NCBI GenBank assembly: GCA_013297865.1 | Contig: JAAFIP010000002.1 | Span: forward strand, 248,001 to 312,000 | Length of the DNA stretch: 64,000 nt | Direction: 5' to 3' | Origin: Polaromonas sp. | GTDB lineage: Bacteria > Pseudomonadota > Gammaproteobacteria > Burkholderiales > Burkholderiaceae_C | In this document: positions 2,435 to 62,468 of the stretch, in pieces | How positions within the stretch are numbered: the stretch's first letter is position 1 | Layout: each line of letters begins with the position of its first letter | Translations under genes and position numbers: made by a program | The notes under the pieces: model-generated | The model's database searches: none | What the model was told of the DNA's origin: nothing | What the model saw: the letters and a program-made list of their open reading frames with translations, nothing else

Positions 2435-2489
2435 ACTATGAATTTTATAGCTGCTCCCGTGACAGTCTATTGGGCTGGCAGCCTAAAAG
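2435..2489 (-). repeat. F1 interspersed repeat copy 1
   Basis: actatgaattttatagctgctcccgtgacagtctattgggctggcagcc; reverse complement matches the F1 consensus. Confidence 0.85.
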
Positions 2490-2632
2490 ATGTCTGAAGA
2501 TACCCTTTTAGCGCTTTCCCGTCGGCTTGTTAACTCTGGTTTAGTTTTCGCAAAACCACTGCGCCTGCGATTGATAAAAACTTGTTGCCTTCACAAAGGC
2601 AGCACAAAACGGCGCGCTACAAGAAACCGCAA

Positions 2633-2759
2633 GCGGTGATGGGGTGTGGTTTTGATGAAAATCTGCAGCAAGGCGCGCGGTGCATAAGCTGGCTGTGCGT
2701 TAGCTCAATTCGCGCGTGTTTGCGGAGGATTTTGCAGCGAAACTTTCCCCATCGCCGCA
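2633..2759 (+). repeat. F2 structured repeat copy a
   Basis: GCGGTGATGGGG...GATGAAAATCTGCAGCAAGGCGCGCGGTGCAT...CGCGCGTGTTTGCGGAGGATTTTGCAGCGAAA...CCCCATCGCCGC; complementary ends. Confidence 0.75.
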
Positions 2760-2810
2760 GCTCACGGTCTTTGCGCTTTGGGTTATGCAGTCTCCGGGCA
2801 GAGCGCAAAA

Positions 2811-2884
2811 GGGGTCAGAGCAAAATTTCGTATGAGTATTACGCGCCTCGGAAGAATGGTTGTCCAGAATTTTGATCTGACCCC
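2811..2884. repeat. short inverted-repeat element, RAYT/REP-like remnant
   Basis: GGGGTCAGAGCAAAATT ... AATTTTGATCTGACCCC, 16/17 complementary ends, no ORF inside. Confidence 0.6.
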
Positions 2885-2915
2885 GTTTGCTTCAGAGTTC
2901 TGATGAGTAACGAGC

Positions 2916-3179
2916 TTAGGGTCTGCGCCAGAACTCTACAAAAATACACCATAAAAGTCCTTCAAGATCCAGTGGATCATCAGAAGTGTCTACTTCCTGG
3001 AGGTAGTCTTTAAGCAAAAACCAGTGGATCACTAAAACTCCGACGATAGGAATAAATATGCACACCAAACTTTTCATTATTTTGAGCCACAGCTCGTACC
3101 GTGGACTGACCCAAAGTCTCCACAAGACCAGTAGAAGATAAAGTATGTACAGAACTAAGTAGAAAATGCCTAAGCTCAT
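2916..3179 (-). CDS. small membrane protein, hypothetical
   Basis: 87 aa ORF with two hydrophobic segments; overlaps the xerC start codon (ATGA). Confidence 0.5.
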   Translation of the reverse strand: MSLGIFYLVLYILYLLLVLWRLWVSPRYELWLKIMKSLVCIFIPIVGVLVIHWFLLKDYLQEVDTSDDPLDLEGLLWCIFVEFWRRP

Positions 3180-4129
3180 TTACTTGCTTTCAAACGCTTC
3201 GCCCGCGGATGCGCCGCGTCATAGGCCTTGGCCAGGTGCTGAAAATCGAGGCGGGTGTAGACCTGGGTGGTGGTGATGTTGGCGTGGCCTAGCAGCTCCT
3301 GGACGGCGCGCAGGTCTTGGCTGCTTTGCAGGACGTGGCTGGCGAAGCTGTGGCGCAGCATGTGGGGGTGCACGGGGGTGGCCAGGCCGGCTTGCAGGCT
3401 GCGGCGCTTGAGGCGCTGCCAGATGGACTGGGCGGTGAGGCGGGTGCCGTTTTTGCCGATGAAAAGGGCGCTTTGGTCGGTGGCTGATGTGGGCAGCAGA
3501 TCGCTGCGCACAGACAGATATTTTTGCAAGGCTTCGATCGACTTGGCTCCCAGGGGCACGGTGCGCACCTTGCTGCCTTTACCAGTCACCTTGACCTCGG
3601 CGGCGTCCAGCTGCAGCCAGCCTTTGGCCGATGCAGTGGCCTGCACGTCCAGCCCCACCAGCTCGCCCACGCGCAGGCCGCTGCCGTAGAGCAGCTCGGT
3701 GATGGCGGCGTCGCGCGCCTCCAGGCGGGGGTCAAAGCTGCCGTCTGCGCTGCCGCGCTCAAAGCTGGCCAGCTGCACCGCGTCGTCCACCGCCAGTGCC
3801 TTGGGCAGGGGCTTGGGCTGCTTGGGCGCGCGCACGTCTTGCACCGGGTTGGCGTGAATCAGGCCTTCGCGGCCCAGCCAGGTATAAAAGCCGCGCCAGC
3901 CGCTCAGGATCAGCGCGATGCCGCGCCCGCTGCGGCCCTGGCTGTGCATCTGCGCCACCCAGCGGCGAATGTGCGCGTTGTGCACCTGCGGCAGGCTGAT
4001 GGGGACGGCCAGGGCTAGCGCCTGGAGCTTGCGCAGGTCTTCGGTATAGAGGGCGACAGTGCGCTTGGCCAGGCGTTTTTGCACGCGCACATGATCGAGA
4101 TATTTCTCAATCAGCGCGGCGTCGGTCAT
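3176..4129 (-). CDS. xerC: tyrosine recombinase XerC
   Basis: Catalytic motifs ...HMLRHSFASH, LGHANITTTQVYTRLDF; next to DUF484 and dapF as in many proteobacteria. Confidence 0.93.
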   Translation of the reverse strand: MTDAALIEKYLDHVRVQKRLAKRTVALYTEDLRKLQALALAVPISLPQVHNAHIRRWVAQMHSQGRSGRGIALILSGWRGFYTWLGREGLIHANPVQDVRAPKQPKPLPKALAVDDAVQLASFERGSADGSFDPRLEARDAAITELLYGSGLRVGELVGLDVQATASAKGWLQLDAAEVKVTGKGSKVRTVPLGAKSIEALQKYLSVRSDLLPTSATDQSALFIGKNGTRLTAQSIWQRLKRRSLQAGLATPVHPHMLRHSFASHVLQSSQDLRAVQELLGHANITTTQVYTRLDFQHLAKAYDAAHPRAKRLKASK

Positions 4130-4135
4130 GGCAGG

Positions 4136-4822
4136 TCAGGCGCGCAGCCGTGCCAGCGCTGCGCTGGCCAGCTCGGCGATGCGCTCTAAAAAGTCGGTGC
4201 CCATGTTGGCGTTAAAGCGCTCGGGGTCGGGCGAGGCCAGCACCAGCATGCCAAAGGAATCAGCCGCAGCGCCTGCGCGCAGGGGGATCAGCGCCACCGA
4301 CATGGCCAGCTCGGGCTGGGCCAGCCACTGCACAGCTTCAAAGCTGGAGTTCACGCCGCAGTAGGGCACAGTGATGGACGAGGCAAAAGCCTTGGCATCG
4401 CTGCTCACGCCAGTGGCAAAAGGCTGGTCAGAAAACAGGCCGTTGGTGTCCCACACCTTGATCGCCACCTGTGGCACGAGAAACTGGTGCTTGATCTCGC
4501 GCGTCAGCACCTCGGGCAGCTCGATAGCGTGGTGGGTGAGCAGCAGGTTGCGGGTCCAGCGCTGCATCTTGTCGGCGATCATCATGTTGTCGTTGCCGTT
4601 GCGCACCATCTCCATGATGCGGCGCTCCAGCGTCTTGATCTTCTCGCGCAGCATCTCGGCCTGGCGTTCCTGCAGGCTGACTGCGCGCGCGCCATGGCCG
4701 CTGGAGAGCTGCACAGTGGCCAGCAGCTCGGCGTGGCGCTCAAAAAAGTCGGGCGTGTTGACCAGAAACTGGGCAATGTCGGCCTCTGTGATGGGCGGTA
4801 CGTCGTTGGCTTTAAGGGTCAT
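4136..4822 (-). CDS. DUF484 family protein
   Basis: ITEADIAQFLVNTPDFFERHAELL N-terminus and GAF-like C-terminus; xerC-dapF neighbourhood. Confidence 0.88.
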   Translation of the reverse strand: MTLKANDVPPITEADIAQFLVNTPDFFERHAELLATVQLSSGHGARAVSLQERQAEMLREKIKTLERRIMEMVRNGNDNMMIADKMQRWTRNLLLTHHAIELPEVLTREIKHQFLVPQVAIKVWDTNGLFSDQPFATGVSSDAKAFASSITVPYCGVNSSFEAVQWLAQPELAMSVALIPLRAGAAADSFGMLVLASPDPERFNANMGTDFLERIAELASAALARLRA

Positions 4823-4837
4823 GGGTCTTCCTCGGGT

Positions 4838-5740
4838 CTAGCGGGGGTGGTCGGGCACGTCAATGGTGCCCTGAAAAACGGTGGTGGCTGGGCCGATCAT
4901 CATCACACTGTGGCCCAGGCCTGCCCACTCAATGGTGAGAATGCCGCCGCGTGCGTGCACATCGACTTTGGCGTCCAGCAGCCCCAGGCGAATGCCTGCC
5001 ACCACAGCGGCGCAGGCACCGGTGCCGCAGGTCAGCGTCTCGCCGGCGCCGCGCTCATACACGCGCAGGCGAATGGTCTGGCGGTTCACTATCTGCATGA
5101 AGCCGGCATTGACGCGCTGCGAAAAGGCCGGGTGCGCCTGCACCCAGGGCCCCACGGTGTCCACCGGCGCGGTGTCCACATCGTCCACGATCTGCACCGC
5201 ATGCGGGTTGCCCATGGAGAGCACGGCTATCTCTTTGCTCAAGGTATGCGCTATGTTTTCAATAGCTGCTCCCGCGATATTCCATTGGGCTAGACGCCAT
5301 TTTTGCCATGAATTAGCGGCCACAGGCACGGCCTGGGACGCATCAAAAGGCACCTGCGGCAGATCAAACACCGGCACGCTCATGTCCACCAGCACGCGGC
5401 CATCGCTTTGCTCGGTCAGCACCAGGGTGTTGTTCATGGTCTTGACGCGGATGGAGGTTTTGTCGGTCAGGCCGCGCTCGCGCACATAGCGCACAAAGCA
5501 GCGCGAGCCGTTGCCGCAGTGCTCCACCTCGCCGCCATCGGCGTTGTGGATCACGTATTCAAAGTCCACGCTGGCGTCAGGCGCGGGGCGCACGGTGAGT
5601 ATCTGGTCAGCGCCTACGCCAAAGTGCCTATCGCCCAAAAAGCGGTATTGCGCGGCGCTCAAGCCCAGCCGTCCGCGCGTTTCGTCCAGCACGACAAAGT
5701 CGTTGCCTGCGCCGTGCATTTTGGTGAAACTGATCTGCAT
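4838..5740 (-). CDS. dapF: diaminopimelate epimerase (contains in-frame F1 repeat)
   Basis: [39 protein letters not shown]; start set at [13 protein letters not shown] rather than the longer ORF. Confidence 0.93.
5251..5307 (-). repeat. F1 copy 2, in frame within dapF
   Basis: Coding strand ctagcccaatggaatatcgcgggagcagctattgaaaacatagc -> [15 protein letters not shown]. Confidence 0.9.
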
Positions 5741-5748
5741 AGCCCCAA

Positions 5749-6448: not shown

Positions 6449-7009
6449 ATGCGCATCCCCGAATGGACCCCCGCCGCCCACCCCCAGTCAGACGAACTGA
6501 TCAACGCCATCAAGGCGCGCCGCGGTGGCCAGCTGATCCAGCTGGACAAAGCCCTGCTGTGGAGCGAGCCGCTGGCCCGCGGCTGGAACGTCTACCTCAA
6601 AGCCGTGCGCACCGAGCTGCCCACCAGCCGCAAGCTGCGCGAGCTGGCGATCTGCACCGTAGCCCTGCTGACCGGCGCCGCCTACGAATACCATCACCAC
6701 GCCCCCGACTTTCTGGCCGCAGGCGGCACCCAGGCCGAGCTGGACGCCCTGAACGCCCATCTAGCCCCATTTTTAAAGCAAAATCAGCCGCTAGCCCAAT
6801 GGAATATCGCAGGAGCAGCTATCGAAAACGTAGTAATGCAATATGCCGCAGAGATGACTTTGCACGTCAAAGTAAGCGACGCCACCTTTGCCGCGCTGCA
6901 GCAGCACTTTGACACTACGCAGATAGTTGAGCTGACCTCGGCCATCGCCACCTACAACATGGTGGCCAGGTTTTTGGTGGCACTGGGGGTGACACCGGAA
7001 GAGCGCTGA
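6449..7009 (+). CDS. carboxymuconolactone decarboxylase-like (AhpD-fold) protein with in-frame F1 repeat
   Basis: KLRELAICTVALLTGAAYEYHHHAPDFLAAG motif; start at MRIPEWTPAAHPQ. Confidence 0.8.
   Translation: MRIPEWTPAAHPQSDELINAIKARRGGQLIQLDKALLWSEPLARGWNVYLKAVRTELPTSRKLRELAICTVALLTGAAYEYHHHAPDFLAAGGTQAELDALNAHLAPFLKQNQPLAQWNIAGAAIENVVMQYAAEMTLHVKVSDATFAALQQHFDTTQIVELTSAIATYNMVARFLVALGVTPEER
6780..6834 (+). repeat. F1 copy 3, in frame
   Basis: cgctagcccaatggaatatcgcaggagcagctatcgaaaacgtagt -> [15 protein letters not shown]. Confidence 0.9.
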
Positions 7010-7100: not shown

Positions 7101-7226
7101 GCGGCAGTTGAGGAAGTCGTGCTGCAAAAACTTCCGCGAACACGCGCGAGCACCATCCCCGTATATCCACCGCATGCACCGCGCGCCTCGCTACAGTTTT
7201 TCATCCCGACCACGCTCAACTACCGC
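7101..7226 (-). repeat. F2 copy b
   Basis: GCGGCAGTTGAG ... GCTGCAAAAACTTCCGCGAACACGCGCGAG ... GCATGCACCGCGCGCCTCGCTACAGTTTTTCATC ... CTCAACTACCGC; reverse orientation to copy a. Confidence 0.75.
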
Positions 7227-7375
7227 TTTGCTGGGTCGGTGGGTTGTTTGAGGGCTAGATTCTGCCAGGGCGACTTTACAAATTTTGCCGTGCCTGCTCA
7301 TAATTGCGTTACATGACAACAACTCAATAAATGCAATCATGCTTCTGAAATTGTTCCTGTCGCGTTATCTTGCGG
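7149..7375 (+). repeat. direct repeat unit 1 (half F2 plus leader region)
   Basis: Near-repeat at 8332-8551, including ttttgccgtgcctgctcataat...caactcaataaatgcaat...gaaattgtt. Confidence 0.75.
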
Positions 7376-7424
7376 ACTACCAAGTTATTCAGCAGTTTCG
7401 CGGGATGTATCAAAGTTAACCAAT

Positions 7425-8331: not shown

Positions 8332-8551
8332 AAGCATCATCCCCTTATGTCTACCGAGTGCAGCGCGCCTCGCTGCAGTTTTTCATCCCTACCACGCTTA
8401 ACTACCGCTTTGCTGGGTTGGTGGGCTTTTAGAGCGTTAAACCGGACGAGGCTGCTTTACAAATTTTGCCGTGCCTGCTCATAATCACCGTACATGGCGA
8501 CAACTCAATAAATGCAATTGTGCATTTTGAAATTGTTTCTGTCATGTTATT
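8332..8551 (+). repeat. direct repeat unit 2, contains half copy F2-c (8332-8407)
   Basis: agcatcatccccttatgtctaccgagtgcagcgcgcctcgctgcagtttttcatccctaccacgcttaactaccgc... parallels 7149 onward. Confidence 0.75.
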
Positions 8552-8882: not shown

Positions 8883-8887
8883 AAATG

Positions 8888-10891: not shown

Positions 10892-11013
10892 CAGGGTGGG
10901 TTTGTCCCGATGAAAATTTTGGAGAAAGGCGCGCGGTGCATGCGCTGGCCTTGCATTACCGAAGTTCGCGCGTGTTTTCGTAAAAATTTTGGCGAAAGGG
11001 ATAACCCGCCCTG
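10892..11013 (+). repeat. F2 copy d
   Basis: CAGGGTGGGTTTGTCCCGATGAAAATTTTGGAGAAAGGCGCGCGGTGCATGCG...CGCGCGTGTTTTCGTAAAAATTTTGGCGAAAGGGATAACCCGCCCTG. Confidence 0.75.
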
Positions 11014-13200: not shown

Positions 13201-14967
13201 ATGGTGCGATCTATAACCCTTCTATACCCCCTGCGCGAGCCAGCGCCCCTGCTGCCAGCCGCGACAGTGCTGCTACTGCGCGATACGCCGCAGGGCATCG
13301 AAGTGCTCATGACTCGCCGCTCCCTGAAGGCCAGTTTTGCGCCGGGTGCCTATGTGTTTCCGGGCGGCGGTATTGAAGATGCAGATAGAAAACAGGCGCT
13401 AGGCCAATCAAATATCGCGGGAGCAGCTACATATTCGATAGCAAGACGCCCCGGTCAAACGCATATGCGCTGCGCCACGGCACTGGCCGCCATCCGCGAA
13501 AGCTTTGAAGAGCTGGGCATTTTGCTGGCCCGCAAAGCGGATGGTGCATGGTGTGGACAGGCGGACGTGGACGCGCTCAGCCGCAGTGCGCCGTTTTATG
13601 AGCAGATGCAGGCCAAGGGCTACACCATGGCAGCCAATGAGGTGTATTTTCTGGCCCACTGGATCACCGACCGTGATCTGCCCAAGCGTTTTGATGTGCC
13701 TTTTTTGGTGGCGCGCATGCCGCCAGGCCAGGCCCCGTTGGCTGACGATGCCGAGCAGTTTGCGCCCGAATGGGTGCGCCCCGCAGACGCGCTGGCGCGC
13801 CATGCCGTGGGCCATTTCTTCATGATTTTTCCTACGGTGCGCACGCTCGAGCGCCTGCAGGCCTACCCGAATGTCGATGCCGTGCTGAGCGCCTGTGCAG
13901 GCGACAAGCCGCTGTGGACCAGCTGCCCGCGTGCGGGCCTGCTGGCGGGCAAGGAAGCGCGCTGCATGGAGCACGAAGGGCCGTTTGGCGAGCTGGCCAT
14001 GGTCTGCCCAGATGGGCAGATCAGGCACACGCTGGACTGGCAGCATGCCAAGCCTGTGCCCCTGCTGCGCCATGTCATGCGCCTGACAGCGCCCAACCCC
14101 GGCATGATGACCGGGCCAGGCACCAACACCTATATCGTGGGCACGCCAGACACCGGCTATGTGGTGATTGACCCCGGTCCTAACGACAGTGCGCATATCC
14201 GCCGCATCATCGAGGCTACCGAGGGCGACATCAACGCCATCGTCTGCACCCACTCACACCCCGACCATTCGCCTGCAGCCTATCCCCTGCGCGCCATGGT
14301 GATGGAGGCGACCAACACCGTGCCAGGCGAGCTGATGGGCGAATATGCCAGCCTGATGTGCCCCGTGCTGGGCCTGCCCAGCGCAGCCACGGCACGCGAG
14401 ACAGCCCATTTTGAGCCAGACATCACGCTACAGAATTATGAGCTGCTCTCGCAATATTTCAGAGGCTCTGGGGATGAAAATGCACTCCAGATCACCCTGC
14501 AGGTGGTGCACACGCCGGGTCACGCGGCCAACCACCTGTGCCTGGTGCTGCAGGAAGATGGCCTGCTCTTTAGCGGCGACCATGTTCTCAACGGCAGCAC
14601 CACGGTGATCGACCCTCCTGATGGCGACATGACCGACTACCTGGCCTCGCTGGACCTGCTGGCTGCGGCCTGCGATGCGCACACTGTGGACTTCATTCTG
14701 CCAGCCCACGGCTATGTGCTGACCCATTGCCTGGGCGCAGACCACAATGGGGGTGCGCGCCGCGCAATTGAGGCCCTGAAGGCGCACCGACTGCAGCGCG
14801 AGGCCAAGGTGATTGCTGCCATGCGCGCCAAGCCGGGTGCCAGTGTGCAGGACCTGGTGCCGCTGGCGTATGCCGATGTGTCGCCCCAGCTATGGCCTGT
14901 GGCTGCGCGCTCACTGACGGCGCATATGCAGCGCATCGAGGCGCAGGGCCTGCTGGTGGGAGCCTAA
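13201..14967 (+). CDS. NUDIX hydrolase - MBL-fold metallo-hydrolase fusion, with in-frame F1 repeat
   Basis: N-terminal FPGGGIEDA..AAIRESFEELGIL NUDIX signature; C-terminal CTHSHPDHSPAA and VVHTPGHAANHLC MBL motifs in one 588 aa ORF. Confidence 0.85.
   Translation: MVRSITLLYPLREPAPLLPAATVLLLRDTPQGIEVLMTRRSLKASFAPGAYVFPGGGIEDADRKQALGQSNIAGAATYSIARRPGQTHMRCATALAAIRESFEELGILLARKADGAWCGQADVDALSRSAPFYEQMQAKGYTMAANEVYFLAHWITDRDLPKRFDVPFLVARMPPGQAPLADDAEQFAPEWVRPADALARHAVGHFFMIFPTVRTLERLQAYPNVDAVLSACAGDKPLWTSCPRAGLLAGKEARCMEHEGPFGELAMVCPDGQIRHTLDWQHAKPVPLLRHVMRLTAPNPGMMTGPGTNTYIVGTPDTGYVVIDPGPNDSAHIRRIIEATEGDINAIVCTHSHPDHSPAAYPLRAMVMEATNTVPGELMGEYASLMCPVLGLPSAATARETAHFEPDITLQNYELLSQYFRGSGDENALQITLQVVHTPGHAANHLCLVLQEDGLLFSGDHVLNGSTTVIDPPDGDMTDYLASLDLLAAACDAHTVDFILPAHGYVLTHCLGADHNGGARRAIEALKAHRLQREAKVIAAMRAKPGASVQDLVPLAYADVSPQLWPVAARSLTAHMQRIEAQGLLVGA
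13388..13442 (+). repeat. F1 copy 4, in frame
   Basis: gctaggccaatcaaatatcgcgggagcagctacatattcgatag -> LGQSNIAGAATYSIA. Confidence 0.85.
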
Positions 14968-26610: not shown

Positions 26611-27186
26611 TTAATGCGCGATACCTTCGCGTCTCCAGACTTGGGTAAACGTTCTCCACAAAATATGCATGTCAAGCCTGAGCGATTGGCGATGCACATA
26701 CTCCTCATCAAAACGTACTTTGTCGGCGATGGACAATTCATCACGGCCATTGATCTGCGCCCAACCAGTCAACCCTGGTACCAGTGCATCTACACCGCGC
26801 TCGGTGCGCAGTGCAATCAGATCGTCCTGGTTGAACAGCGCCGGCCGTGGGCCTACAAAGCTCATATGGCCCGTGAGAATGCTCCAAAGCTGCGGCACTT
26901 CGTCCAGACTGGTTTTGCGCAGAAAGGGGCCTATGGGGGTGAGGTATTGATCAGGGTTGGTCAGCAAATGCGTGGCTACCGCTGGGGTATCGGTGCGCAT
27001 ACTACGAAACTTGGGCATATTGAAGAGGCGGTTGTGTTGCCCCACACGTTCAGACCAGTAAAGTACCGGCCCGCGGGAGCTGAGTTTGATGGCGATGGCA
27101 ATGAGGCATAGCGGCAAGGCCAGCAAAGCCAGCAAGGTGAACGCCATACCGAAGTCAAACAGTCTTTTCACATTAAATAAGGCCAC
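26611..27186 (-). CDS. initiating sugar transferase (PglC/WcaJ-type); true start may be VKRLFDFG at 27171
   Basis: [75 protein letters not shown]. Confidence 0.88.
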
Positions 27187-27228
27187 AGACCAATGAAATA
27201 TCGCGGGAACAGCTACTAAATATATAGC
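27174..27228 (+). repeat. F1 copy 5 (upstream of/overlapping the sugar transferase start)
   Basis: ggccacagaccaatgaaatatcgcgggaacagctactaaatatatagc. Confidence 0.85.
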
Positions 27229-27259
27229 AAATGCAACTCAATAAGCAACCTGTATCGCA

Positions 27260-30914: not shown

Positions 30915-31586
30915 TTAGGGGTTGGCAAGTAGTTCATCTGCGCGTCGGACTGCTGCGATGAACTGGATGATCTTGTCGGGGTCCTTGATGCCTTTGGCAG
31001 TCTCCACCCCCGAGCTCACGTCAACGGCCCAGGGCCGCACTTGCACCATGCCATCGATCACGTTTGCAGGCGTCAATCCACCAGACAAAACGAGGCGAGA
31101 GCTTGCGTTTAGTTGAGGATGTGACCAATTGATTGCGTTCCAGTTAAATGTTTTGCCACTGCCGCCAAACCCCTCTGTATGGGCGTCTACCAATATGGCT
31201 TGGGCGTCAGCAAAGTCCTGACTGAATTTTACCAAGTCAAAGCCCTCAGCACCATCCAGGGGTATACGGGCTGCGCGCAAGTATGGCAGTCCCGCCTGCT
31301 GGCAATCCCGAGGTGTTTCATCCCCATGAAATTGGCATACAGCCCTTTGGTTAATCGCGTGGGCAGCTATGATATTTGTAGTGCTTTCATTCACGAAAAG
31401 CAGCACCGGTGTTACAAATGCGGGCAGGCGGCGCGACAGCTGGGCTGCGCGTTCAGCGCTGACATAGCGCGCACTGGGCGGATACAGCACAAAACCGATG
31501 GCGTCAGCTCCCGCCCGGACGGCTGCGTCAACGTCCTGTTCGCGTGTCAGGCCGCAGATCTTGATTCGGGTTCGGTGCTTGTTCAT
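30915..31586 (-). CDS. trpF: phosphoribosylanthranilate isomerase
   Basis: RIKICGLTREQDVDAAVRAGADAIGFVLYPPSARYVS. Confidence 0.93.
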   Translation of the reverse strand: MNKHRTRIKICGLTREQDVDAAVRAGADAIGFVLYPPSARYVSAERAAQLSRRLPAFVTPVLLFVNESTTNIIAAHAINQRAVCQFHGDETPRDCQQAGLPYLRAARIPLDGAEGFDLVKFSQDFADAQAILVDAHTEGFGGSGKTFNWNAINWSHPQLNASSRLVLSGGLTPANVIDGMVQVRPWAVDVSSGVETAKGIKDPDKIIQFIAAVRRADELLANP

Positions 31587-36802: not shown

Positions 36803-36807
36803 TGCAT

Positions 36808-36862
36808 CAAAAAGGCTGCCAAGCCAATAGAATATCGCGGGAGCAGCTATTAATTTAATAGT
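36808..36862 (+). repeat. F1 copy 6
   Basis: caaaaaggctgccaagccaatagaatatcgcgggagcagctattaatttaatagt. Confidence 0.9.
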
Positions 36863-36875
36863 AAATACCGGCTCA

Positions 36876-39099: not shown

Positions 39100-39126
39100 G
39101 ATCTTATGGGGTTAAGAGGGGATTTT

Positions 39127-39310
39127 GGACGCGAAGGACGCGAAGGTTTCGCGAAGGACGCTAAAGGAATACCAAAAAAATAAAATTAAAAGTGAAAAAT
39201 AAAAAACTACGTCAAGTGAATAAAAAATTCAAAAATGCAACAAAACTATTTTGGTATTTATTTTTGTCTTCTTTCGCGTTCTTCGCGAAACCTTCGCGCA
39301 CTTCGCGTCC
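39127..39310. repeat. F3 hairpin element copy 1 (between leuD and leuC)
   Basis: GGACGCGAAGGACGCGAAGGTTTCGCGAAGGACGC...GCGTTCTTCGCGAAACCTTCGCGCACTTCGCGTCC; AT-rich interior. Confidence 0.85.
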
Positions 39311-39336
39311 GGTATTAATTTTTCAAAGACTCAAAT

Positions 39337-40889: not shown

Positions 40890-41096
40890 CACGGGTTGGT
40901 GTATGTCATCCGCCCTCATACTGGAGTACCAGAAATCGGTCGGCTGACATACCCCAACCCGTGTGCGACCAACGTAGCGTGCTACCGGTAGTCCCCGACA
41001 AGCCATCGTGTTCAATACCGGTAGCGCGCTAGCTTTTGTGCGGGCGGGATGGCGTGTACAAACCGACCGATTTCTGGTACTCCAGTATGAGGGCGG
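40890..41096. repeat. nested inverted-repeat element
   Basis: 34-bp perfect IR CCGCCCTCATACTGGAGTACCAGAAATCGGTCGG (40910-40943 / 41063-41096) plus 19-bp IR (40890-40908 / 40945-40963, one mismatch) and inner GCGTGCTACCGGTA/TACCGGTAGCGCGC. Confidence 0.85.
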
Positions 41097-41208
41097 TTTG
41101 CATGCGCCATCTCGCCAGCGACCACGCAACTCCTCACTTTCAAACCCATGCACGCTACAAAGCATGTTTTCATAACTCAAGGCAGCTAAAGAAGGCATAT
41201 TTCGATAA

Positions 41209-41264
41209 CCAAACAGCCTCCAAGCCCAATAAAATACCGCGGGAGCAGCTACAAAATTCATAGT
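41209..41264 (+). repeat. F1 copy 7 (overlaps 3' end of LysR gene)
   Basis: caagcccaataaaataccgcgggagcagctacaaaattcatagt. Confidence 0.88.
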
Positions 41265-42211
41265 AAAGCACCTGCAGTCAAATGCTCCACCAACAGCCGC
41301 GCAGGCACGCTCAGCGTAGCAAAGTCGCGCGCCACCAGCAAAATGTCGCGCTGTGCCCAGCTGTCGGTCAGCGGCACCGCCACCAGGTCGCCCACACCGC
41401 GGATCAACGCAAATGCCTTGTCGGGCACCACCCCAATGCCCAGACCGTTGTCGATCATGCGGCACACGGCGTCAAGGCTGGTCACCTGGATGCGTAGCGC
41501 AATCGTTTTGCCAGCCTCGGCCGCAGCGCGGTTTTGCGCCAGATAGATCGCACTGTTGCTGTGCAGGCCTACGTGGTCATAGTCCAGGCTGTCGGCAAAA
41601 GCCAGCTGCTTTTTGCGCGCCAGCGCGTGCTTGCGCGGCACCACCAACACCAGGCGGTCCTGGCGGTAGGGCCTGCTTTGCAGCTCGCCCAGGGCCGCCT
41701 GCGGGTTGCAGATGCCGATGTCTGCCGCGCCCTCGTGCACCGCGCGCACAATGTCGCCTGACAGATGCTCCTGCAGGTCAATGCGTAGCTGCGGATGCAG
41801 CTTGGAAAAAGCGCCGATGTCTTCAGGCAGAAACTGCACAATCGCCGAGATGTTGGCGTGGATGCGCACATGGCCCTTGACTCCGTCGGCGTACTCGGAC
41901 AGCTCGCCCTGCATGCGGTCCAGGCTTAGCAGTACGCTGCGCGCGTGGTGCAAAAAGGTCTCGCCCGCAGGCGCCACGTCCACGCCGCGCGCGTGGCGAT
42001 ATAGCAGGGCGGTGTCCAGCGTAGCTTCCAGGTCGGAGAGGCGCTTGCTCACGGCCGAGGGCGCGATAAATTCGCGCTCTGCCGCCTTGCCGATGCTGCC
42101 CAGCTCGCAGACGGCTACAAACAGCTGTAGCGAGGTCAGGTCGATGCGGCGGGCAAACGATCTTTCGGTGGGACGCAAGGCGGTGGTCATGGGCAGGCAG
42201 GGCGTAAACAT
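41258..42211 (-). CDS. LysR family transcriptional regulator
   Basis: IDLTSLQLFVAVCELGSIGKAAEREFIAPSAVSKRLSDLEATL. Confidence 0.92.
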   Translation of the reverse strand: MFTPCLPMTTALRPTERSFARRIDLTSLQLFVAVCELGSIGKAAEREFIAPSAVSKRLSDLEATLDTALLYRHARGVDVAPAGETFLHHARSVLLSLDRMQGELSEYADGVKGHVRIHANISAIVQFLPEDIGAFSKLHPQLRIDLQEHLSGDIVRAVHEGAADIGICNPQAALGELQSRPYRQDRLVLVVPRKHALARKKQLAFADSLDYDHVGLHSNSAIYLAQNRAAAEAGKTIALRIQVTSLDAVCRMIDNGLGIGVVPDKAFALIRGVGDLVAVPLTDSWAQRDILLVARDFATLSVPARLLVEHLTAGALL

Positions 42212-43428: not shown

Positions 43429-43485
43429 ATCAAACAGGCTGCCAGACCAATAGAATATCGCGGGAGCAGCTATTAAAAGCATAGT
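43429..43485 (+). repeat. F1 copy 8
   Basis: caaacaggctgccagaccaatagaatatcgcgggagcagctattaaaagcatagt. Confidence 0.9.
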
Positions 43486-43506
43486 AATCTAACCGAGGAG
43501 ACAAGC

Positions 43507-44547
43507 ATGCACAACCTGTACCAGACACTCGCCCCTGTGCTGGCTGGCGCGCTGGCGCTGGCATTGACCGGCTGCGCGTCCACCCCTGGCCTGCAGATCA
43601 AGGAAGTGGGCAGCTTCCATCTGGGTGGCAAGCAAGTCACCCTGAGCGGCCTGCCTGAAAAGGAGCTGCGCTTCACACCCAGCTCGCCGCCCATCAAGGT
43701 CAACCCCAATGGCGAGTTTGAAGCCGAACAGATGTATGTGCAGTATGTGCTGCAGTCCGCGCCCAAGGCTAAACACCCGCTCTTGCTGTGGCACGGCGGC
43801 GGCCTGGCGGGCGTGACCTTTGAGACCAAGCCCGATGGCGGCGCAGGCTGGCAGATGGACTTTTTAAACGCCGGGCACGATGTGTATGTGAGCGACGCGG
43901 TTGAGCGCGGCCGCGCCTCCTGGGCACGCTACCCCGAGATTTTCAGCAGCGAGCCGTTTTTCCGCACCAAGAAAGAAGGCTGGGAGCTGTTTCGCATTGG
44001 CCCCACTTGGGACACCGAGCCTGCCAAGCGCGTAGCCTACCCAGGCGCACAGTTCCCCACCGCGGCCTACGACCAGTTTGCCAAGCAGTTTGTACCGCGC
44101 TGGGCCACCAACAATGCGCCCACCCAGGCCGCCTACGACGCGCTGGTGCAAAAGGTCTGCCCCTGCGTGATCGTGGTGCACAGCCAGGGCAGCACCTTTG
44201 CCTTTGAAGCCGCGCGCAAGGCCCCCCAGCTGGTCAAGGCCGTGGTGGCCGTAGAGCCCAGCGGTGCGCTGGACGCCACCAAGGTCGATATCACTGGCCT
44301 CAAAGCCGTGCCCCACCTGTTTGTCTGGGGCGACAACCTGGACAAAAACGCCACCTGGCAAAGCATCCTGCCGCCGCTGCGCCGGTTTGCCGATGCCCTC
44401 AAAAGCCAGGGCGGCTTGGTGGACACCATCGACCTGCCTGCCCAAGGCATCCAGGGCAATAGCCATATGCTCATGATGGACAAAAACTCCAGCCAGGTGG
44501 CCGCGCTGATCCAGGCCTGGCTGGCCCGGCAAGGCCTGATGCGCTAG
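43507..44547 (+). CDS. alpha/beta hydrolase (lipoprotein-like)
   Basis: LALALTGCAS lipobox; LLWHGGGLAGVTFETKPDGG; VVHSQGSTFAFEAA. Confidence 0.8.
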   Translation: MHNLYQTLAPVLAGALALALTGCASTPGLQIKEVGSFHLGGKQVTLSGLPEKELRFTPSSPPIKVNPNGEFEAEQMYVQYVLQSAPKAKHPLLLWHGGGLAGVTFETKPDGGAGWQMDFLNAGHDVYVSDAVERGRASWARYPEIFSSEPFFRTKKEGWELFRIGPTWDTEPAKRVAYPGAQFPTAAYDQFAKQFVPRWATNNAPTQAAYDALVQKVCPCVIVVHSQGSTFAFEAARKAPQLVKAVVAVEPSGALDATKVDITGLKAVPHLFVWGDNLDKNATWQSILPPLRRFADALKSQGGLVDTIDLPAQGIQGNSHMLMMDKNSSQVAALIQAWLARQGLMR

Positions 44548-45215: not shown

Positions 45216-45241
45216 TTTGGGTTTTTGAAGACCTGAATACA

Positions 45242-45449
45242 GAACTTCCGGACGCGAAGGGCGCGAAGGTTTCGCGAAGGACGCGAAAGAAGACAGAAGA
45301 AAAAATACCAAAGCTTGGACTTCACATACAACCTGTTTACCTTGCGACAAGCAATTTAAATGGGCCAAGATAGGATGTGAATTTTAAAAATTTTGGTATT
45401 CCTTTCGCGTCCTTCGCGAAACCTTCGCGTTCTTCGCGTCCGGCAGTTC
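45242..45449. repeat. F3 hairpin element copy 2
   Basis: GAACTTCCGGACGCGAAGGGCGCGAAGGTTTCGCGAAGGACGCGAAAGAAG...CTTTCGCGTCCTTCGCGAAACCTTCGCGTTCTTCGCGTCCGGCAGTTC. Confidence 0.9.
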
Positions 45450-45499
45450 TGCCCCCGAATTGAGTCCTTGACAGACATTGAATAGACAGAGACCACATC

Positions 45500-46885: not shown

Positions 46886-46913
46886 TTTTGTAATGGATAG
46901 ACTTTAGAAGACG

Positions 46914-47120
46914 GAACTTCCGGACGCGAAGGGCGCGAAGGTTTCGCGAAGGACGCGAAAGAAGACAGAAGAAAAATACCAAAGTTCGGACTTCACACAC
47001 AACCTGTTCATCTTGCGACAAGCAATTTAAATGGACCAAGCTAGGATGTGAATTTTAAAAATTTTGGTATTCCTTTCGCGTCCTTCGCGAAACCTTCGCG
47101 CCCTTCGCGTCCGGCAGTTC
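46914..47120. repeat. F3 hairpin element copy 3
   Basis: Nearly identical to copy 2 including the interior (ggacttcacacacaacctgttcatcttgcgacaagcaatttaaatgg). Confidence 0.9.
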
Positions 47121-47152
47121 TCCCCCCCCAATCAAGACCTTAGGAACGAAAA

Positions 47153-49470: not shown

Positions 49471-49524
49471 CAAAATGTGCCACCAGACCAATAGAATATC
49501 GCGGGAGCAGCTATGAAAATAAGA
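49471..49524 (+). repeat. F1 copy 9 (supplies RBS and start codon of the next CDS)
   Basis: ccagaccaatagaatatcgcgggagcagctATGaaaataagagc. Confidence 0.88.
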
Positions 49525-50418
49525 GCAAACGGCATTGATATCGAGGTGGAAGACACGGGCGGGCAGGGCACGCCTGTGCTGCTGGTGATGGGCCTGGGCA
49601 TGCAGTTGATCGCCTGGCCACCAGCCATGGTCAACAGCCTGGTCGACGCAGGCTATCGCGTCATTCGCCTGGACAACCGCGACATTGGCCTGAGCCAGCA
49701 TTTCGATGCGCTGGGCACGCCCAATCTGCTGTGGGCGAGTTTTAAGCACCGCGTGGGCATGGCCATTCGCCCGCCCTACAGCTTGCAGGACATGGCGCAG
49801 GACGCCATCGGCGTGCTGGACGCACTAGGTATTGACAGCGCCCATGTGGTGGGCGCATCGATGGGCGGCATGATTGCGCAGCGCATGGCGCTGGGTCACC
49901 CACAGCGTGTGCGCAGCCTGACCAGCATCATGAGCACCAGCGGCGCCACTGGCCTGCCCGGGCCGCAAAGCCATGTGCTGCGTGCGCTGTTCTCGCGCCC
50001 CATGTCGCAGGACGAGGCAGCCATTGTGGCGCACTATGTGCGGTTTTTCGGTGTTATCGGCAGCCCGGCTTTTCCGGTGGACGATGCCTTGCTGCGCGAG
50101 CGCATTCGCGCAGGCATCGCGCGCAGCTACCATCCACAAGGCACGTCGCGCCAGATGCTGGCCATTGCCGCTGACACTACCCGCGCCCAGGCGCTGACCC
50201 AGCTGCGCTGCCCCACTCTGGTGTTGCACGGCAAGGCCGACCCCCTTGTGCCGTTTGCCTGCGCGCAGGACACCGCACGGCGCATCCCCGGTGCCCAACT
50301 GGTCGGCATCGACGGCATGGGGCACGACCTGGCACCTGGCGTGGTCGACGCGCTGCTGCCGCACATGCACGCTTTTTTGCACACCCATTCACCGGCCCTT
50401 CAGCATGAACCTGCCTGA
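49513..50418 (+). CDS. alpha/beta hydrolase
   Basis: [30 protein letters not shown] nucleophile elbow. Confidence 0.88.
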
Positions 50419-52027: not shown

Positions 52028-52713
52028 GCGTGCTTGTGCGTGCAGAGCAAGCCAGCGTGCGCTTTGGCCGCGTGCTGGCGCTGCAGGACGTGTCGCTGCA
52101 AGTGCAGCGCGGCCAGTGCGTGGCGCTGATCGGTGGCAACGGCAGTGGCAAGAGCACGTTGCTGCGTCTGATGCATGGCCTGATCACGCCTGCTAGCGGC
52201 ACGCTGGAGCGCGATGGCGCGGTGCGCCAGGCCTTTGTGTTTCAGCGGCCCTTTGTGCTGCGCAGCTCTGTGCTGTCCAATGTGGCGCTGGCCGCCTGGC
52301 TGCAGGGCCAGCCTTGGGCGCAAGCCAAGGTGCAGGCGCTGCAGGCGCTGCGCGAGGTAGGGCTGCATGCGCTGGCCCAGCGCCAGGCACGCACCCTCTC
52401 GGGTGGCCAGCAACAGCGTCTGACGTTTGCGCGCGCACTGGTGGCCCAGCCCGAGCTGCTGCTGCTGGACGAGCCGACGGCCAGCCTGTCGCCACAGGCC
52501 AAGCGTGAAGTGGAGGCCTTGATGCGGCAATGCCTGGAGCGGGGCATGACGGTGGTGTTTGCCAGCCACAATCTGGGCCAGGTCAAGCGCCTGGCCAGCC
52601 GCGTGGTGTGTCTGGATGCTGGCCGCGTGGTGGCTAATCAAGCGACCGCAGAATTTTTTACGGAGCCTGCTACAGAGGCCGCGGCGTCGTTTCTTCGCGG
52701 AGAAACTCTGTGA
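52024..52713 (+). CDS. tupC: ABC transporter ATP-binding protein, tungstate type
   Basis: Walker A GGNGSGKST, LSGGQQQRLTFARALVAQPELLLLDEPTASL. Confidence 0.85.
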   Translation: MSVLVRAEQASVRFGRVLALQDVSLQVQRGQCVALIGGNGSGKSTLLRLMHGLITPASGTLERDGAVRQAFVFQRPFVLRSSVLSNVALAAWLQGQPWAQAKVQALQALREVGLHALAQRQARTLSGGQQQRLTFARALVAQPELLLLDEPTASLSPQAKREVEALMRQCLERGMTVVFASHNLGQVKRLASRVVCLDAGRVVANQATAEFFTEPATEAAASFLRGETL

Positions 52714-53564
52714 CGCTTGTAAGGCATGTGATTTATATGCTTTTCAGGCCGCCAGCCCAATGGAATATCGCGGGAGCAGCTATTATTTTTATAGCGCAAG
52801 TGATGGCTTGGGGTGCAGCCCATGCCCAGAGCATCGTCATGGCGTCAACCACCTCCACAGAGCAATCGGGCCTGTTTGCCCATCTGCTGCCTGCGTTCAA
52901 GCGTGCCAGTGGCATCGATGTGAAGGTGGTGGCGTTGGGTACCGGGCAGGCGATTGACATGGGGCGCCGGGGCGATGCGGATGTGCTGTTTGTGCACGAC
53001 CAGGCGGCAGAAGAAAAGCTGGTTGCAGAGGGTTTTGCGCTCAAGCGCCTGCCGGTGATGTACAACGATTTTGTGCTGATCGGCCCTTCCAGCGACCCTG
53101 CGATGGTTAAAGGTAAAGACGTTGTGGAGGCACTGAAAAAAATCAGTGCCCGCAGTGCGCCCTACATCTCGCGCGGCGACAAATCCGGCACGCACGCGGC
53201 CGAGCTGCGCTTCTGGAGCATGGCTGCGCTGGCGCTCAGCAAGGGCGCGGGCTATAGGGAGTGTGGCTGCGGTATGGGCCCGGCGCTCAATATGGCGGCG
53301 TCTTCGGGCGCCTATGTGCTGAGCGACCGCGCCACTTGGCTCAATTTCAAAAACAGGGCAAATCTGGCGGTGCTGGTGGAAGGCGATAACCGATTGTTCA
53401 ACCAGTACGGCGTGATGGTGATCAACCCGGCCAGACACCCGCATGTGAAAGCGCAGCAGGCGCAGCAATTTGTCGATTGGCTGGTATCACCCGCGGGTCA
53501 AAGCACCATAGCCAGCTACAAAATCGGCACGCAGCAGCTGTTCTTCCCCAACGCCTCGCGTTGA
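52710..53564 (+). CDS. tupA: tungstate substrate-binding protein; signal peptide partly built from F1 repeat
   Basis: MASTTSTEQSGLFAHLLPAFKRASGIDVKVVALGTGQAIDMGRRGDADVLFVHD; alternative start ATG at 52737. Confidence 0.85.
   Translation: MTLVRHVIYMLFRPPAQWNIAGAAIIFIAQVMAWGAAHAQSIVMASTTSTEQSGLFAHLLPAFKRASGIDVKVVALGTGQAIDMGRRGDADVLFVHDQAAEEKLVAEGFALKRLPVMYNDFVLIGPSSDPAMVKGKDVVEALKKISARSAPYISRGDKSGTHAAELRFWSMAALALSKGAGYRECGCGMGPALNMAASSGAYVLSDRATWLNFKNRANLAVLVEGDNRLFNQYGVMVINPARHPHVKAQQAQQFVDWLVSPAGQSTIASYKIGTQQLFFPNASR
52740..52796 (+). repeat. F1 copy 10, in frame within tupA signal peptide
   Basis: gccagcccaatggaatatcgcgggagcagctattatttttatagc -> [15 protein letters not shown]. Confidence 0.9.
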
Positions 53565-58918: not shown

Positions 58919-59173
58919 ATGAAAATTACCCTCAAACTCTTTGCTTCGCTGACAGACTATCTGCCGCCCTCAGACCGCAGCAGCAATATCACTGCGCTTG
59001 ACGTATCACCCGATGCCAGCATTTTGCAGATCATTGAACCGTTCGGCATGCCCGTCAAACTGGTGCATCTGGTGCTCGTCAACGGCACCTATATCGACCC
59101 CACCCAGCGCGCAACGCGCAGGCTGCAGGAGGGCGATGTGCTGGCCATCTGGCCGCCGATTGCTGGCGGTTGA
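58919..59173 (+). CDS. MoaD/ThiS family protein
   Basis: 84 aa ubiquitin-like protein, KITLKLFASLTDYLPP...GDVLAIWPPIAGG C-terminal Gly-Gly. Confidence 0.85.
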   Translation: MKITLKLFASLTDYLPPSDRSSNITALDVSPDASILQIIEPFGMPVKLVHLVLVNGTYIDPTQRATRRLQEGDVLAIWPPIAGG

Positions 59174-59192
59174 TGCATTGAGCATATCAAAC

Positions 59193-59250
59193 ACTATGAA
59201 TTTTATAGCTGCTCCCGCGATATTCTATTGGCTTGGCGGCCTTTTTTCTT
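59193..59250 (-). repeat. F1 copy 11
   Basis: actatgaattttatagctgctcccgcgatattctattggcttggcggcctttttt. Confidence 0.9.
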
Positions 59251-59261
59251 TGTAAAACACA

Positions 59262-59561
59262 GTGCAGTCATACTACGCTGAGCAATTTGACCGCGAGATG
59301 GGCTGCACGGTGGCCGAGTGGCTGATGTGGCTGCCTGCGGCCATGGGCGATGTACCCTGGCAGCAACAGGGCGACGCGCTGCAGGCTACGCTGGGCGCAG
59401 GCAGTGTGCGTATCCAGTGGCGGGCAGGCCAGCCACGCCAGATTGCTCTATTCAAACTGCCGCGCCTGCACGTCGGCTTTGCCTTTGAAGGCCTGGATGA
59501 TGCGCAGCGTTACAACTTCATGAAGCGCTTTGACCTGTATATGCAGCGCGGTGGCGGCTAA
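59262..59561 (+). CDS. conserved hypothetical protein
   Basis: 99 aa ORF directly downstream of the MoaD-like gene. Confidence 0.6.
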   Translation: MQSYYAEQFDREMGCTVAEWLMWLPAAMGDVPWQQQGDALQATLGAGSVRIQWRAGQPRQIALFKLPRLHVGFAFEGLDDAQRYNFMKRFDLYMQRGGG

Positions 59562-59661
59562 TTTTTACATTTCATCACTTTAAAGCGCCCTGCTTCCTCG
59601 TTCTATGGTGTGACCTCATGCAAAAGGCGTAGCCTGATGCGGTCACACTTTGAGATAAAGG

Positions 59662-61116
59662 ATGTCTATGCGTATGTTCTGGCAGAAATTCGACCCCTGT
59701 CTGTGGGTGGTCTGCGCGAGTGTCTGGCTCGCAGCCTGTGGTTCCAATTCCGAGGTGGCCAATCTGCCTTCGGGCAATCCTGGCACTGGCACGGTCACTC
59801 CCACTCCCACGGTCGTTGGCTCCACCAGCGCCATTGCCGGACAGCTCTATACCTACCAGGCCAGCGTGAGCGGCAGCACCGCCACGGCCTGGAGCTGGAA
59901 CTGGGGCGATGGCACGGCAGCCGCCACAGGCTCGCCCGTGCAAAAAGTGTGGAACCGCGCGGGCAACTTCACCACCACCATCACTGTCAGCGCGGGCAAT
60001 ACCTCCAGCAGTGCCAACGTGGCGGTCAAAACCGTGATGGAGCCTGTGACCTCCAGCACCAACCATAACTGCGCCATCCTGCCCGATGCTACGGTGCAAT
60101 GCTGGGGTAGCAACAGTGCAGGCCAGCTGGGTAACAATTCCACGGTAACCAGCGTAGTGCTGGTGACCGTCAATGGCCTCACCGATGCGGTCGGTTTGAC
60201 CTCTGGCCAGAACCATACCTGCGCCTTGCGTGCCAACGGCACCGTGAGCTGCTGGGGCAGCAACAGGGCCGGGCAATTGGGTGATGGCAGCTTTACTGAC
60301 AGCCTGGTGCCCGTGCCAGTGCAGGGCCTGACCAACGCGGTGGCAGTGACAGCCAACCAGCAGCATACCTGCGCGCTGATCAACAACGGCAGCGTGAAAT
60401 GCTGGGGCAGCAACAATAACAACCAGCTGGGTGATACCACCAGATCCCCGGACCAGGGCTCTTCCAGCAGCCCCGTCACCGTGACAGGGGTGATCGACGC
60501 TAAAGCCATTTCTGCGGGTGATGCACATGTCTGCGCCTTGCTTGACGGGGGCAGCGTGCGCTGCTGGGGCACCAATTCGAATGGGCGGCTGGGCACCACT
60601 ACGCTTTCAGCCATCACCTCGACCGTATCCGACCTCACCAATGCGGTGGCGTTATCGTCTGTCTCGGGGCAGGGGCAGATGTGTGCCCTGCTGGCAGATG
60701 CCACGGTCAAATGCTGGGGGCTCAGCTGGGAGCGGCTGTTGGGTATCGGAGAGGTTGGTGATGTGTATTCTGCAACCGCTGTGCCGGAGCTGACCAATGC
60801 AGTAGGGGTGTCGGTCGGGCGCACGCACAGCTGCGCCTTGCGCTTGGATGCCACGGTCTACTGCTGGGGTAACAATGCGCAGGGCCAGCTGGGCGACGGC
60901 TCAACCAACAGCAGTAACGCCATCGTGCGGGTCCTCAATCTGTCAGATGTGGTGACTTTGAACACCGGTGAGAACCACACCTGCGCGCTCAGGCAAGGCG
61001 GCAGGCTCAGCTGCTGGGGCGGCATCAACAGTTTCGGCGAAGTGGGCACCGACGCAAAAGGGCCTGTCACACTGGCGCAGCCGTCTTTTGCAGATGCGGC
61101 ATTGTTCTGGCGGTAA
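59662..61116 (+). CDS. RCC1-repeat lipoprotein with PKD-like domain
   Basis: VWLAACGS lipobox; WSWNWGDGTAAATGSPVQKVWNRAGNF PKD-like; repeated HTCALR..G.V.CWG.N..GQLGDGS units. Confidence 0.85.
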   Translation: MSMRMFWQKFDPCLWVVCASVWLAACGSNSEVANLPSGNPGTGTVTPTPTVVGSTSAIAGQLYTYQASVSGSTATAWSWNWGDGTAAATGSPVQKVWNRAGNFTTTITVSAGNTSSSANVAVKTVMEPVTSSTNHNCAILPDATVQCWGSNSAGQLGNNSTVTSVVLVTVNGLTDAVGLTSGQNHTCALRANGTVSCWGSNRAGQLGDGSFTDSLVPVPVQGLTNAVAVTANQQHTCALINNGSVKCWGSNNNNQLGDTTRSPDQGSSSSPVTVTGVIDAKAISAGDAHVCALLDGGSVRCWGTNSNGRLGTTTLSAITSTVSDLTNAVALSSVSGQGQMCALLADATVKCWGLSWERLLGIGEVGDVYSATAVPELTNAVGVSVGRTHSCALRLDATVYCWGNNAQGQLGDGSTNSSNAIVRVLNLSDVVTLNTGENHTCALRQGGRLSCWGGINSFGEVGTDAKGPVTLAQPSFADAALFWR

Positions 61117-61238
61117 AACCCCGGCCCTGCAAGCAGCTCCGAGCCTACAGATGCATGGATTTGTGACTTAGCTTGCCTGCCCGCTGGGACCTTGCGGGCC
61201 GCCAGCCACTGTTTTGCCAGGGGTTATAAAATAACGCC

Positions 61239-61652
61239 ATGCAACCATTTCACCTCGCCTTCCCCGTTACCGATCTAGACCAAGCCCGTGCCTTCTATGG
61301 CAACGTACTAGGCTGTGCAGAGGGGCGCAGCTCCCCGCACTGGATCGATTTTGATTTTTATGGTCACCAAATTGTTGCGCATCTGTCGCCAGACGAATGC
61401 AAGCCTGCCGGTACCAGCGCTGTAGACGGCCACGGTGTGCCTGTGCGCCACTTTGGCGTCGTGCTGGCAATGGACCAGTGGGAAGCGCTGGCCGCCAAGC
61501 TCAAGGCAGCAAACACCCAGTTTGTGATTGAGCCGTACATTCGCTTCAAAGGCGAAGTAGGCGAGCAGGCCACGATGTTTTTTCACGACCCCTGCGGTAA
61601 CGCGCTTGAATTCAAGGCTTTCAAGGATATTGGTCAGCTGTTTGCTAAGTAA
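61239..61652 (+). CDS. VOC family protein (glyoxalase-like)
   Basis: [29 protein letters not shown]...[15 protein letters not shown]. Confidence 0.9.
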
Positions 61653-61673
61653 ATAGTGTCTGATCTTGGTCCG

Positions 61674-61926
61674 CACGCTGCCCAGGCGCCCTGGGGCAGT
61701 CCACCCGAGCGCCGGCCCGCTTCGCGGGAAGCCTCTGCGGTACGTAAAATTTGGGGAACCGGGCAAACTCGCGCTACGCGCTCAGACAGCGCCCGGTTCT
61801 GTTGGTGGCCACATAACTTTGCTGCGCAAAGTGAGTGTCCCCCCGCTAAAGCGAGCCCAAATTTTTCCGTTCCTCGAGCCCGGCGCTCTGATTGGGTGGA
61901 CCACCCCAGGGCACCTGGGCAGCGTG
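61674..61926. repeat. 253-bp inverted-repeat element
   Basis: CACGCTGCCCAGGCGCCCTGGGGCAGTCCACCC vs GGGTGGACCACCCCAGGGCACCTGGGCAGCGTG (30/33 complementary); inner GAACCGGGC/GCCCGGTTC. Confidence 0.75.
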
Positions 61927-62168
61927 CTCTTCACTGGCTAAGTGGTTCGCTCGGCGGTTTCGCAGTGGGGCGATGTGGCCTTGGTTGATCAGGATCTTGC
62001 TCCCCCGGCTTGGACTAGCCTGTCGAAGTCCGTAAAAGCGAAGGCAGGCGCGGAGTGTACAGAGCACGCAGAACGCACGGTGGGCATGAGCGCACAGTGC
62101 ACAACGCAAAGAATCCTCCGTCATCTCCCGGCGCGCGGGCTTTGAACAAACCCATTAGCCAGGGTGAA

Positions 62169-62283
62169 GCGATGGGAGCGTGTCGATGAAAAAATCGCAG
62201 AAAGGCGCGGCCCACCACCTCAAGATGACTGCCAAGCATCACGCGTGTTTTCGGAGATTTTTTGCAGCGACATGTCCCATCGC
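62169..62283 (+). repeat. F2 copy e
   Basis: GCGATGGGA...GATGAAAAAATCGCAGAAAGGCGCGGC...ACGCGTGTTTTCGGAGATTTTTTGCAGCGAC...TCCCATCGC. Confidence 0.7.
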
Positions 62284-62409
62284 CCGTCCAGGGTGAACTT
62301 CAGCTACAGAGCCTTGCTGCGGGCTGTTAAAAGGCAACAAAGAACAACCAACAAACCACAAAAAAAGCCTCGCCATGGGCTATTAAAAACCGCAAATAAC
62401 AAAGCAGAT

Positions 62410-62468
62410 TACTACAAAATTAATAGCTGCCCCCGCGATATTCCATTGACCTGCAAGCTGATTTGTAT
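62410..62468 (-). repeat. F1 copy 12
   Basis: tactacaaaattaatagctgcccccgcgatattccattgacctgcaagctg. Confidence 0.85.

Follow-up and report, generated by a model that had tools for sequence, protein, structure and literature searches.

A 58-nt repeat with lineage dialects in Polaromonas and other Comamonadaceae behaves more like a self-recognition tag than a recently jumping element

To which of the described kinds of short bacterial repeat is a motif of 58 nt, here called F1 and present at some hundreds of positions in a Polaromonas genome, to be compared? The candidates are REP/REPIN elements, MITEs, the protein-coding palindromes of Wolbachia, the Rickettsia palindromic elements (RPEs), which are palindromic and longer than F1, and the uptake sequences of the Neisseriaceae (DUS) and Pasteurellaceae (USS). 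Neisserial DUS form lineage dialects (PMC3630211), and recent DUS are often not explicable by point mutation, recombination being the explanation instead (PMC2397512). Natural competence is documented in Verminephrobacter eiseniae and in Acidovorax species; V. eiseniae needs type IV pilus genes for uptake, and for that species the authors inferred possible sequence-selective uptake, naming no motif (PMC4212676). A literature search, which missed most subscription journals, found no published description of the repeat.

The window, by which is meant the whole stretch of 64,000 nt that was analysed (Polaromonas sp., GCA_013297865.1, contig JAAFIP010000002.1, positions 248,001 to 312,000), had been credited in a first-pass annotation with twelve copies of F1 in both orientations. 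All twelve are where it placed them, eight on the + strand and four on the - strand, with 0-4 mismatches in their 27-nt core; a shuffled sequence gave zero core matches even when 8 mismatches were allowed. Four copies had been said to be read through in proteins, and they are indeed in frame: within dapF (diaminopimelate epimerase, ORF 4838-5740 -; copy at 5248..5305, listed at 5251, - strand), which is a net 8 aa longer than the dapF of G003, G001 and G011; within a predicted 186-aa ORF (6449-7009, +; copy at 6779..6836, listed at 6782, +); within a NUDIX/metallo-beta-lactamase ORF (13201-14967, +; copy at 13387..13444, listed at 13390, +); and in the signal-peptide region of a PBP-like gene whose ORF runs from a GTG at 52710 (copy at 52740..52797, listed at 52743, +). 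The start- and stop-codon positions that had been noticed are equally real, as the copy at 49471..49528 (listed at 49474, +) provides the ATG of an abhydrolase gene (49513-50418) and that at 41209..41266 (listed at 41212, +) overlaps the stop codon of a LysR-family gene (41258-42211, -). Intergenic copies are at 2433..2490 (listed at 2435, -), at 27173..27230 (listed at 27176, +), at 36807..36864 (listed at 36810, +), directly after the stop of an isocitrate/isopropylmalate dehydrogenase-family gene, at 43430..43487 (listed at 43433, +), where a gene (43507-44547) starts 20 nt downstream, and at 59191..59248 (listed at 59194, -). One further copy (62409..62466, listed at 62412, -) is near the 3' end of a small listed ORF (62412-62978, -) that is uncertain as a gene. 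Degenerate F1-like matches, each with 8 mismatches in the core, are at 14427..14461 (-, E 0.019) and 31329..31382 (+, E 0.005). A tRNA/tmRNA scan of the window found none.

F1 is not the only repeat present. A second family, GGACGCGAAGGnCGCGAAGGTTTCGCGAAGGACGCGAAAG, occurs in the window as inverted pairs (39112-39312, 45235-45456 and 46907-47127); two 156-bp copies of it are 94% identical and there are 87-92% matches in G016. A long inverted repeat (40892-41114; 99-nt arms, 76%) immediately precedes the F1 copy at 41212; the intergenic stretch that contains it exceeds that of relatives by about 400 nt. Further diverged repeats, of 70-90 nt and 75-88% alike, are at 2631-2733, 7160-7342, 8363-8523 and 10914-10989.

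The hundreds of copies anticipated from a scan of the whole genome were found: its 3.99 Mb contain 607 matches (312 + 295 by strand) to the 19-nt core AATATCGCGGGAGCAGCTA with at most 2 mismatches, and the reversed pattern, in the same scan, has 0. In a 464-kb sample, made up of the window and 400 kb of contig C1, nhmmer (E<1e-3) identified 92 copies, in agreement with the one per 5 kb or so first estimated, and by extrapolation the whole genome would have ~800. The consensus is AAATnGGCCTCCAGgCCAATAGAATATCGCGGGAGCAGCTATTAAATTnATAGCAA. Within its register of about 58 nt, conservation is strong across positions 18-44, the 27-nt core, where most sites reach 70-90% or more. The left arm and the seven-base spacer vary in sequence within limits of composition, with AAA or TTT at 3-5 and an AT-rich spacer. 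AT-rich tracts are at about -6 (ahead of the register), +4, +27 and +48, with a modest 11-nt component, and within the motif there is a dyad, GCTAY-N7-RTAGC. The consensus has no terminal inverted repeats, and the F1 of this genome is not palindromic, its folding being no better than that of shuffles (mean z -0.52). Copies in G016 do fold (mean z -1.85), the core there, and in G001, being a perfect palindrome.

Where are the copies with respect to genes? By the calls of a home-made gene caller, which are approximate, 48 of the 92 lie between genes, where copies are enriched, 28 (about 30%) are wholly within predicted genes, in frame, and the remaining 16 overlap the end of a gene. Among those within genes, 14 of the 19 on the same strand are read in one frame, giving xAQQNIAGAAIxNIA, and 6 of the 9 on the opposite strand in one frame, giving IAAPAIFxxP, a single preferred frame per orientation being as expected from survival of stop-free frames. 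The host genes in contig C1, named from reading the protein sequences, include purL (two copies), uvrC, truB, tmk and dapE. Between divergent genes the motif is depleted, and it is common between convergent or co-oriented genes, which is what an RNA element acting in transcripts, be it a terminator, an mRNA stabiliser or an sRNA target, might show. That explanation is nonetheless highly improbable, given that both orientations are used, that copies are in frame within genes, that there is no T-run, and that an Rfam search of the window gave zero matches. A hairpin or RNA model for the Polaromonas dialect was rejected, as that dialect shows no folding beyond that of shuffles.

Is F1 peculiar to the genome in which it was noticed? 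Its GGG core essentially is, only a few copies being found in other genomes. Not so the generic 3' end, AGCAGCTAY-N7-ATAG: of 37 family genomes, 15 have between 9 and 337 copies of it and one more has 3, many Comamonadaceae genomes having 0 matches to the fixed pattern, by which other dialects are under-reported, and it is in 0 of 24 genomes of other families. Eight sampled lineages, namely the Polaromonas genome, PCZ-1 (G113), G207, G032/G239, G036, G071, G016 and G001, align ungapped over 58 nt, the ends of the motif (AAAn-GGC... and GCTAY-N7-RTAG) being common to them and the central 20 nt lineage-specific. The dialects found across the Comamonadaceae bear out the first-pass annotation, which had proposed a family-wide element ending AGCAGCTAT...ATAGTA with F1 as one of its lineage-specific subfamilies. 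F1 is one dialect of an old, vertically inherited, length-constant Comamonadaceae motif, and is not a young insertion family. How readily a dialect can be overlooked is illustrated by G157, a congener of G032, in which the core is kept and GTGCTAT replaces AGCAGCTAT in most of the copies read. To judge from those copies this is a dialect shift within one genus, and as G157 is nearly motif-free by pattern, a fixed pattern can mistake a change of dialect for loss.

The F1 dialect itself has no match in plasmid or phage collections, which may omit near records, and for the palindromic dialect only three family plasmids are among the matches listed. In plasmid NZ_MZ513635.1 (L327, 585-690) a class 1 integron has, flanked by dfrA12 and aadA2, a DUF1010 cassette gene with an element of the palindromic dialect, TTTTTGGCCTCTAGCGCTTGCGTAGCAAGCGCAAGCAGCTATCGTTTTAGCAG. 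Among 1754 plasmid records, nearly all from Enterobacterales, most of the top matches listed are annotated with the same DUF1010 gene. The dialect points to a probable Comamonadaceae origin of this cassette, which serves as an example of how a dialect could be used as a marker of DNA origin.

Orthologues of intragenic sites were found with a chimeric protein query and then read. For truB, for purL-1 and for the gene at C1:372144 the corresponding position is occupied in 4 of 4 relatives by an element or by something resembling one, and for dapE it is so in 3 of 4. More widely, truB has the strict 3' pattern in 27 of 80 family loci (two loci with a match elsewhere not being counted) and an identical inter-anchor length in 68 of the 80; in several Variovorax the DNA motif is eroded or lost and the residues of the truB insertion are retained at the protein level. 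Within the window, the abhydrolase start-codon site (49474) has in G016 an own-dialect copy at the same position, ungapped through the core, and the PBP-like signal-peptide site (52743) has own-dialect versions in four other genera. What is inherited by locus and what by genome can be told apart by comparing ten sites in seven genomes, the sites being chosen for having orthologues, and so mostly coding, and the register being set by hand from alignments. Core identity (nt 18-37) was 0.76 for different sites of the same genome, 0.49 for the same site in different genomes and 0.45 where both were different, and in 0 of 2000 within-site label shuffles was the observed core value matched. For the N7 spacer the corresponding values were 0.47, 0.66 and 0.43. 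Clustering is by genome for the core, and by locus for the spacer and left arm. Each locus, it follows, passes on its position, left arm and spacer, whereas the core is set by genome. The motif is a vertically inherited one of constant length; its positions are old, gains are occasional, and all copies are kept in the dialect of their genome.

On contig C1 the spacing of copies is under-dispersed, 20-kb counts having an index of dispersion of 0.29 versus 1.23 for the null (P 0.00035), and the spacing CV is 0.75 (P 0.0002), the null used preserving the intergenic share of the copies. In G032 spacing goes in the same direction (P 0.016), and in G036 the evenness is not significant (P 0.19); for all these statistical tests the units are copies, not phylogeny. 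Might the motif then be the binding site of a chromosome-organising or regulatory protein, for instance a nucleoid-domain factor, whose specificity drifts and whose sites co-evolve by selection? Regular spacing, the dyad, the rigid register and phased AT tracts are in keeping with this, as is the stability of positions between congeners, G032 and G239 (82% identical) having 6 of 6 sites in common. It is nevertheless unlikely, in part because the motif is patchy, even within one genus: of two members of a Xenophilus-type genus, G071 has 244 pattern matches and G177 has 0, one coding site common to the two being ungapped but eroded beyond recognition in G177. With such patchiness, and with 0 copies in many family genomes, the motif is not essential. 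There is also no strand rule, and it is implausible that selection alone, without drive, would bring about parallel change at hundreds of sites in some half of the 20 positions.

Had the copies spread recently, as the first-pass annotation entertained? It would have counted against mobility that every relative had these copies at unchanged positions, and this is borne out in part: 10 of the 14 sites examined are occupied in one or more other genera too, by an element with the core of the genome concerned. The other 4, among the relatives sampled, are filled only in the Polaromonas genome, so gains do occur. These are 41212, which is empty in the relatives whose alignment spans the site; 13390, where the NUDIX/metallo-beta-lactamase gene of 4 of 4 relatives is without the element and shorter; C1:36670, for which four relatives were also compared; and C1:282253, compared in 37. 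The filled uvrC and purL-2 sites are common to G036 only. Relative to element-free orthologues the net gain is 33 nt at 13390 and 39 or 42 nt at purL-2, and C1:282253 is longer by 39 or 45 nt than nearly all of the 37; at other sites it is 9 to 69 nt, clean cases being 33-45 nt. A clean 58-bp insertion was rejected as a sufficient model, since net gain within genes varies, and so was pure point mutation, since gains add DNA. Recent multiplication would be expected to link variants of the left arm with those of the spacer. Among the 92 copies they are unlinked (r -0.011), so there are no duplication lineages and no sign of recent copying, and left-right correlation is absent from G032 and G036 as well. 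That the test is able to detect duplicates is clear from the positive control, G016, in which duplicates were detected and r is 0.25. With most sites common to other genera, the congeners in full accord and no duplication lineages, recent mobility of F1 is not supported.

Older mobility has to be weighed separately. An ancient spread, by a trans-acting transposase, of a non-autonomous REP/REPIN- or RPE-type element, homogenised by continuing element-to-element conversion or core replacement, is a possible though doubtful source of the motif. High copy number, intergenic enrichment and in-frame intragenic copies suit it, as do the net DNA gain at sites filled only in the Polaromonas genome, the perfect hairpin core of G016 and G001, and RTAG-CTGCT on the reverse strand, which, as read off the consensus alone, may resemble a GTAG-tagged REP. 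The genome even has one RAYT-like Y1 transposase gene, yet what surrounds that gene speaks the other way. Located at G000:C12:185248 (L102, 1468-2169) between ruvC and a gltB-like gene, it is not flanked by the motif, the nearest copy being beyond ruvC about 0.6 kb away, and the other 28 of the 29 Y1 loci examined have zero elements matching the 3' pattern. Most family genomes, motif-bearing or not, have one copy of the Y1 gene, and motif-bearing G021 has none. As the driver it was rejected, on account of being single-copy with or without the motif and unflanked by it. Even spacing, positions common to several genera, the lack of duplication lineages, a Polaromonas dialect without a hairpin and a net gain that is not a constant 58 nt likewise count against such an origin; what sustains its probability is that gains add DNA and that some dialects form hairpins. 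If it were correct, the copies would have been rewritten in place, not replaced, which would be equally unusual. The competence gene comEC was also rejected, as a discriminator: it is present almost everywhere, in genomes with the motif and without.

The reading ranked first, and adopted tentatively, is that the motif is an uptake-signal-like sequence kept at each locus by molecular drive. It is so ranked because of the work on V. eiseniae and Acidovorax, though that paper (PMC4212676) does not test the F1 motif. Preferential uptake and recombination of motif-bearing DNA in natural transformation would hold every copy to the local dialect. If the DNA receptor on the cell surface differed in preference from lineage to lineage, it would select for matching copies and, as it drifted, all sites would follow it, as with the DUS and USS of Neisseriaceae and Pasteurellaceae. 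Within genes the motif would be tolerated where the frame stays open and the site is a permissive loop, a signal peptide or the end of a gene, and the recurring peptides would result. A stronger form of the proposal, which we hold with rather more reserve, is that natural transformation throughout the family relies on a 58-nt self-recognition sequence, well beyond the length of any uptake sequence known, its dialect being rewritten by molecular drive at several hundred loci at once, including in essential genes. Against uptake are the 27-nt core and 58-nt register, far longer than DUS or USS, the enrichment of copies between genes, and the net gain of DNA in genes (33-45 nt in the clean cases), which single-base drift does not give; even spacing and dialects would equally fit a chromosome-organising protein. 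If the uptake proposal is true, this large environmental family would have an uptake sequence of its own, differing in dialect from genus to genus; the dialects would set borders of gene exchange, and sequence-specific transformation would be testable in known competent strains. Whether by uptake or by mobility, essential proteins are having their loops, start codons and signal peptides remodelled by a short repeat.

How, in sum, does F1 compare with the systems named at the outset? Like MITEs it is non-coding, interspersed and transposase-free; unlike them it is without terminal inverted repeats in its consensus, and has a constant register with locus-specific outer parts. Target-site duplication was likewise not seen, in comparisons that had no close empty site to draw on. 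As RPEs and the Wolbachia palindromes do, it occurs in frame in protein genes, including essential ones, and for that one feature the comparison with Rickettsia drawn in the first-pass annotation is apt. It does not extend to palindromy, since F1 does not fold, or to recent mobility, the positions being old, the dialect that of the lineage, and the net gain in genes less than the unit length. With REP/REPIN elements it has in common being short, numerous and vertically persistent, with a hairpin core in some lineages and a RAYT-like gene in the genome. REP/REPIN are mostly extragenic, unlike F1 with its 28 of 92 copies wholly within predicted genes and 16 overlapping gene ends, and F1 here has no palindrome, no copy lineages and no place beside the RAYT-like gene; lack of folding and the unflanked gene set it outside the REPs. 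With defining features absent or not seen in each case, the motif is not filed as REP, RPE or MITE. From DUS and USS it differs in its 58-nt register and 27-nt core, theirs being about 10-30 nt with a short core of about 9-12 nt, and in having fewer copies, about 1 per 5 kb. The likeness, drawn from sequence alone, is in hundreds of copies on both strands, in lineage dialects that follow the genome at conserved orthologous positions, in sites both intragenic and intergenic in permissive regions and, for USS, in AT tracts beside the core. The repeat, though outside their range of size, thus appears to evolve like an uptake-sequence system, and it behaves more like a self-recognition tag than like an element that has recently jumped.
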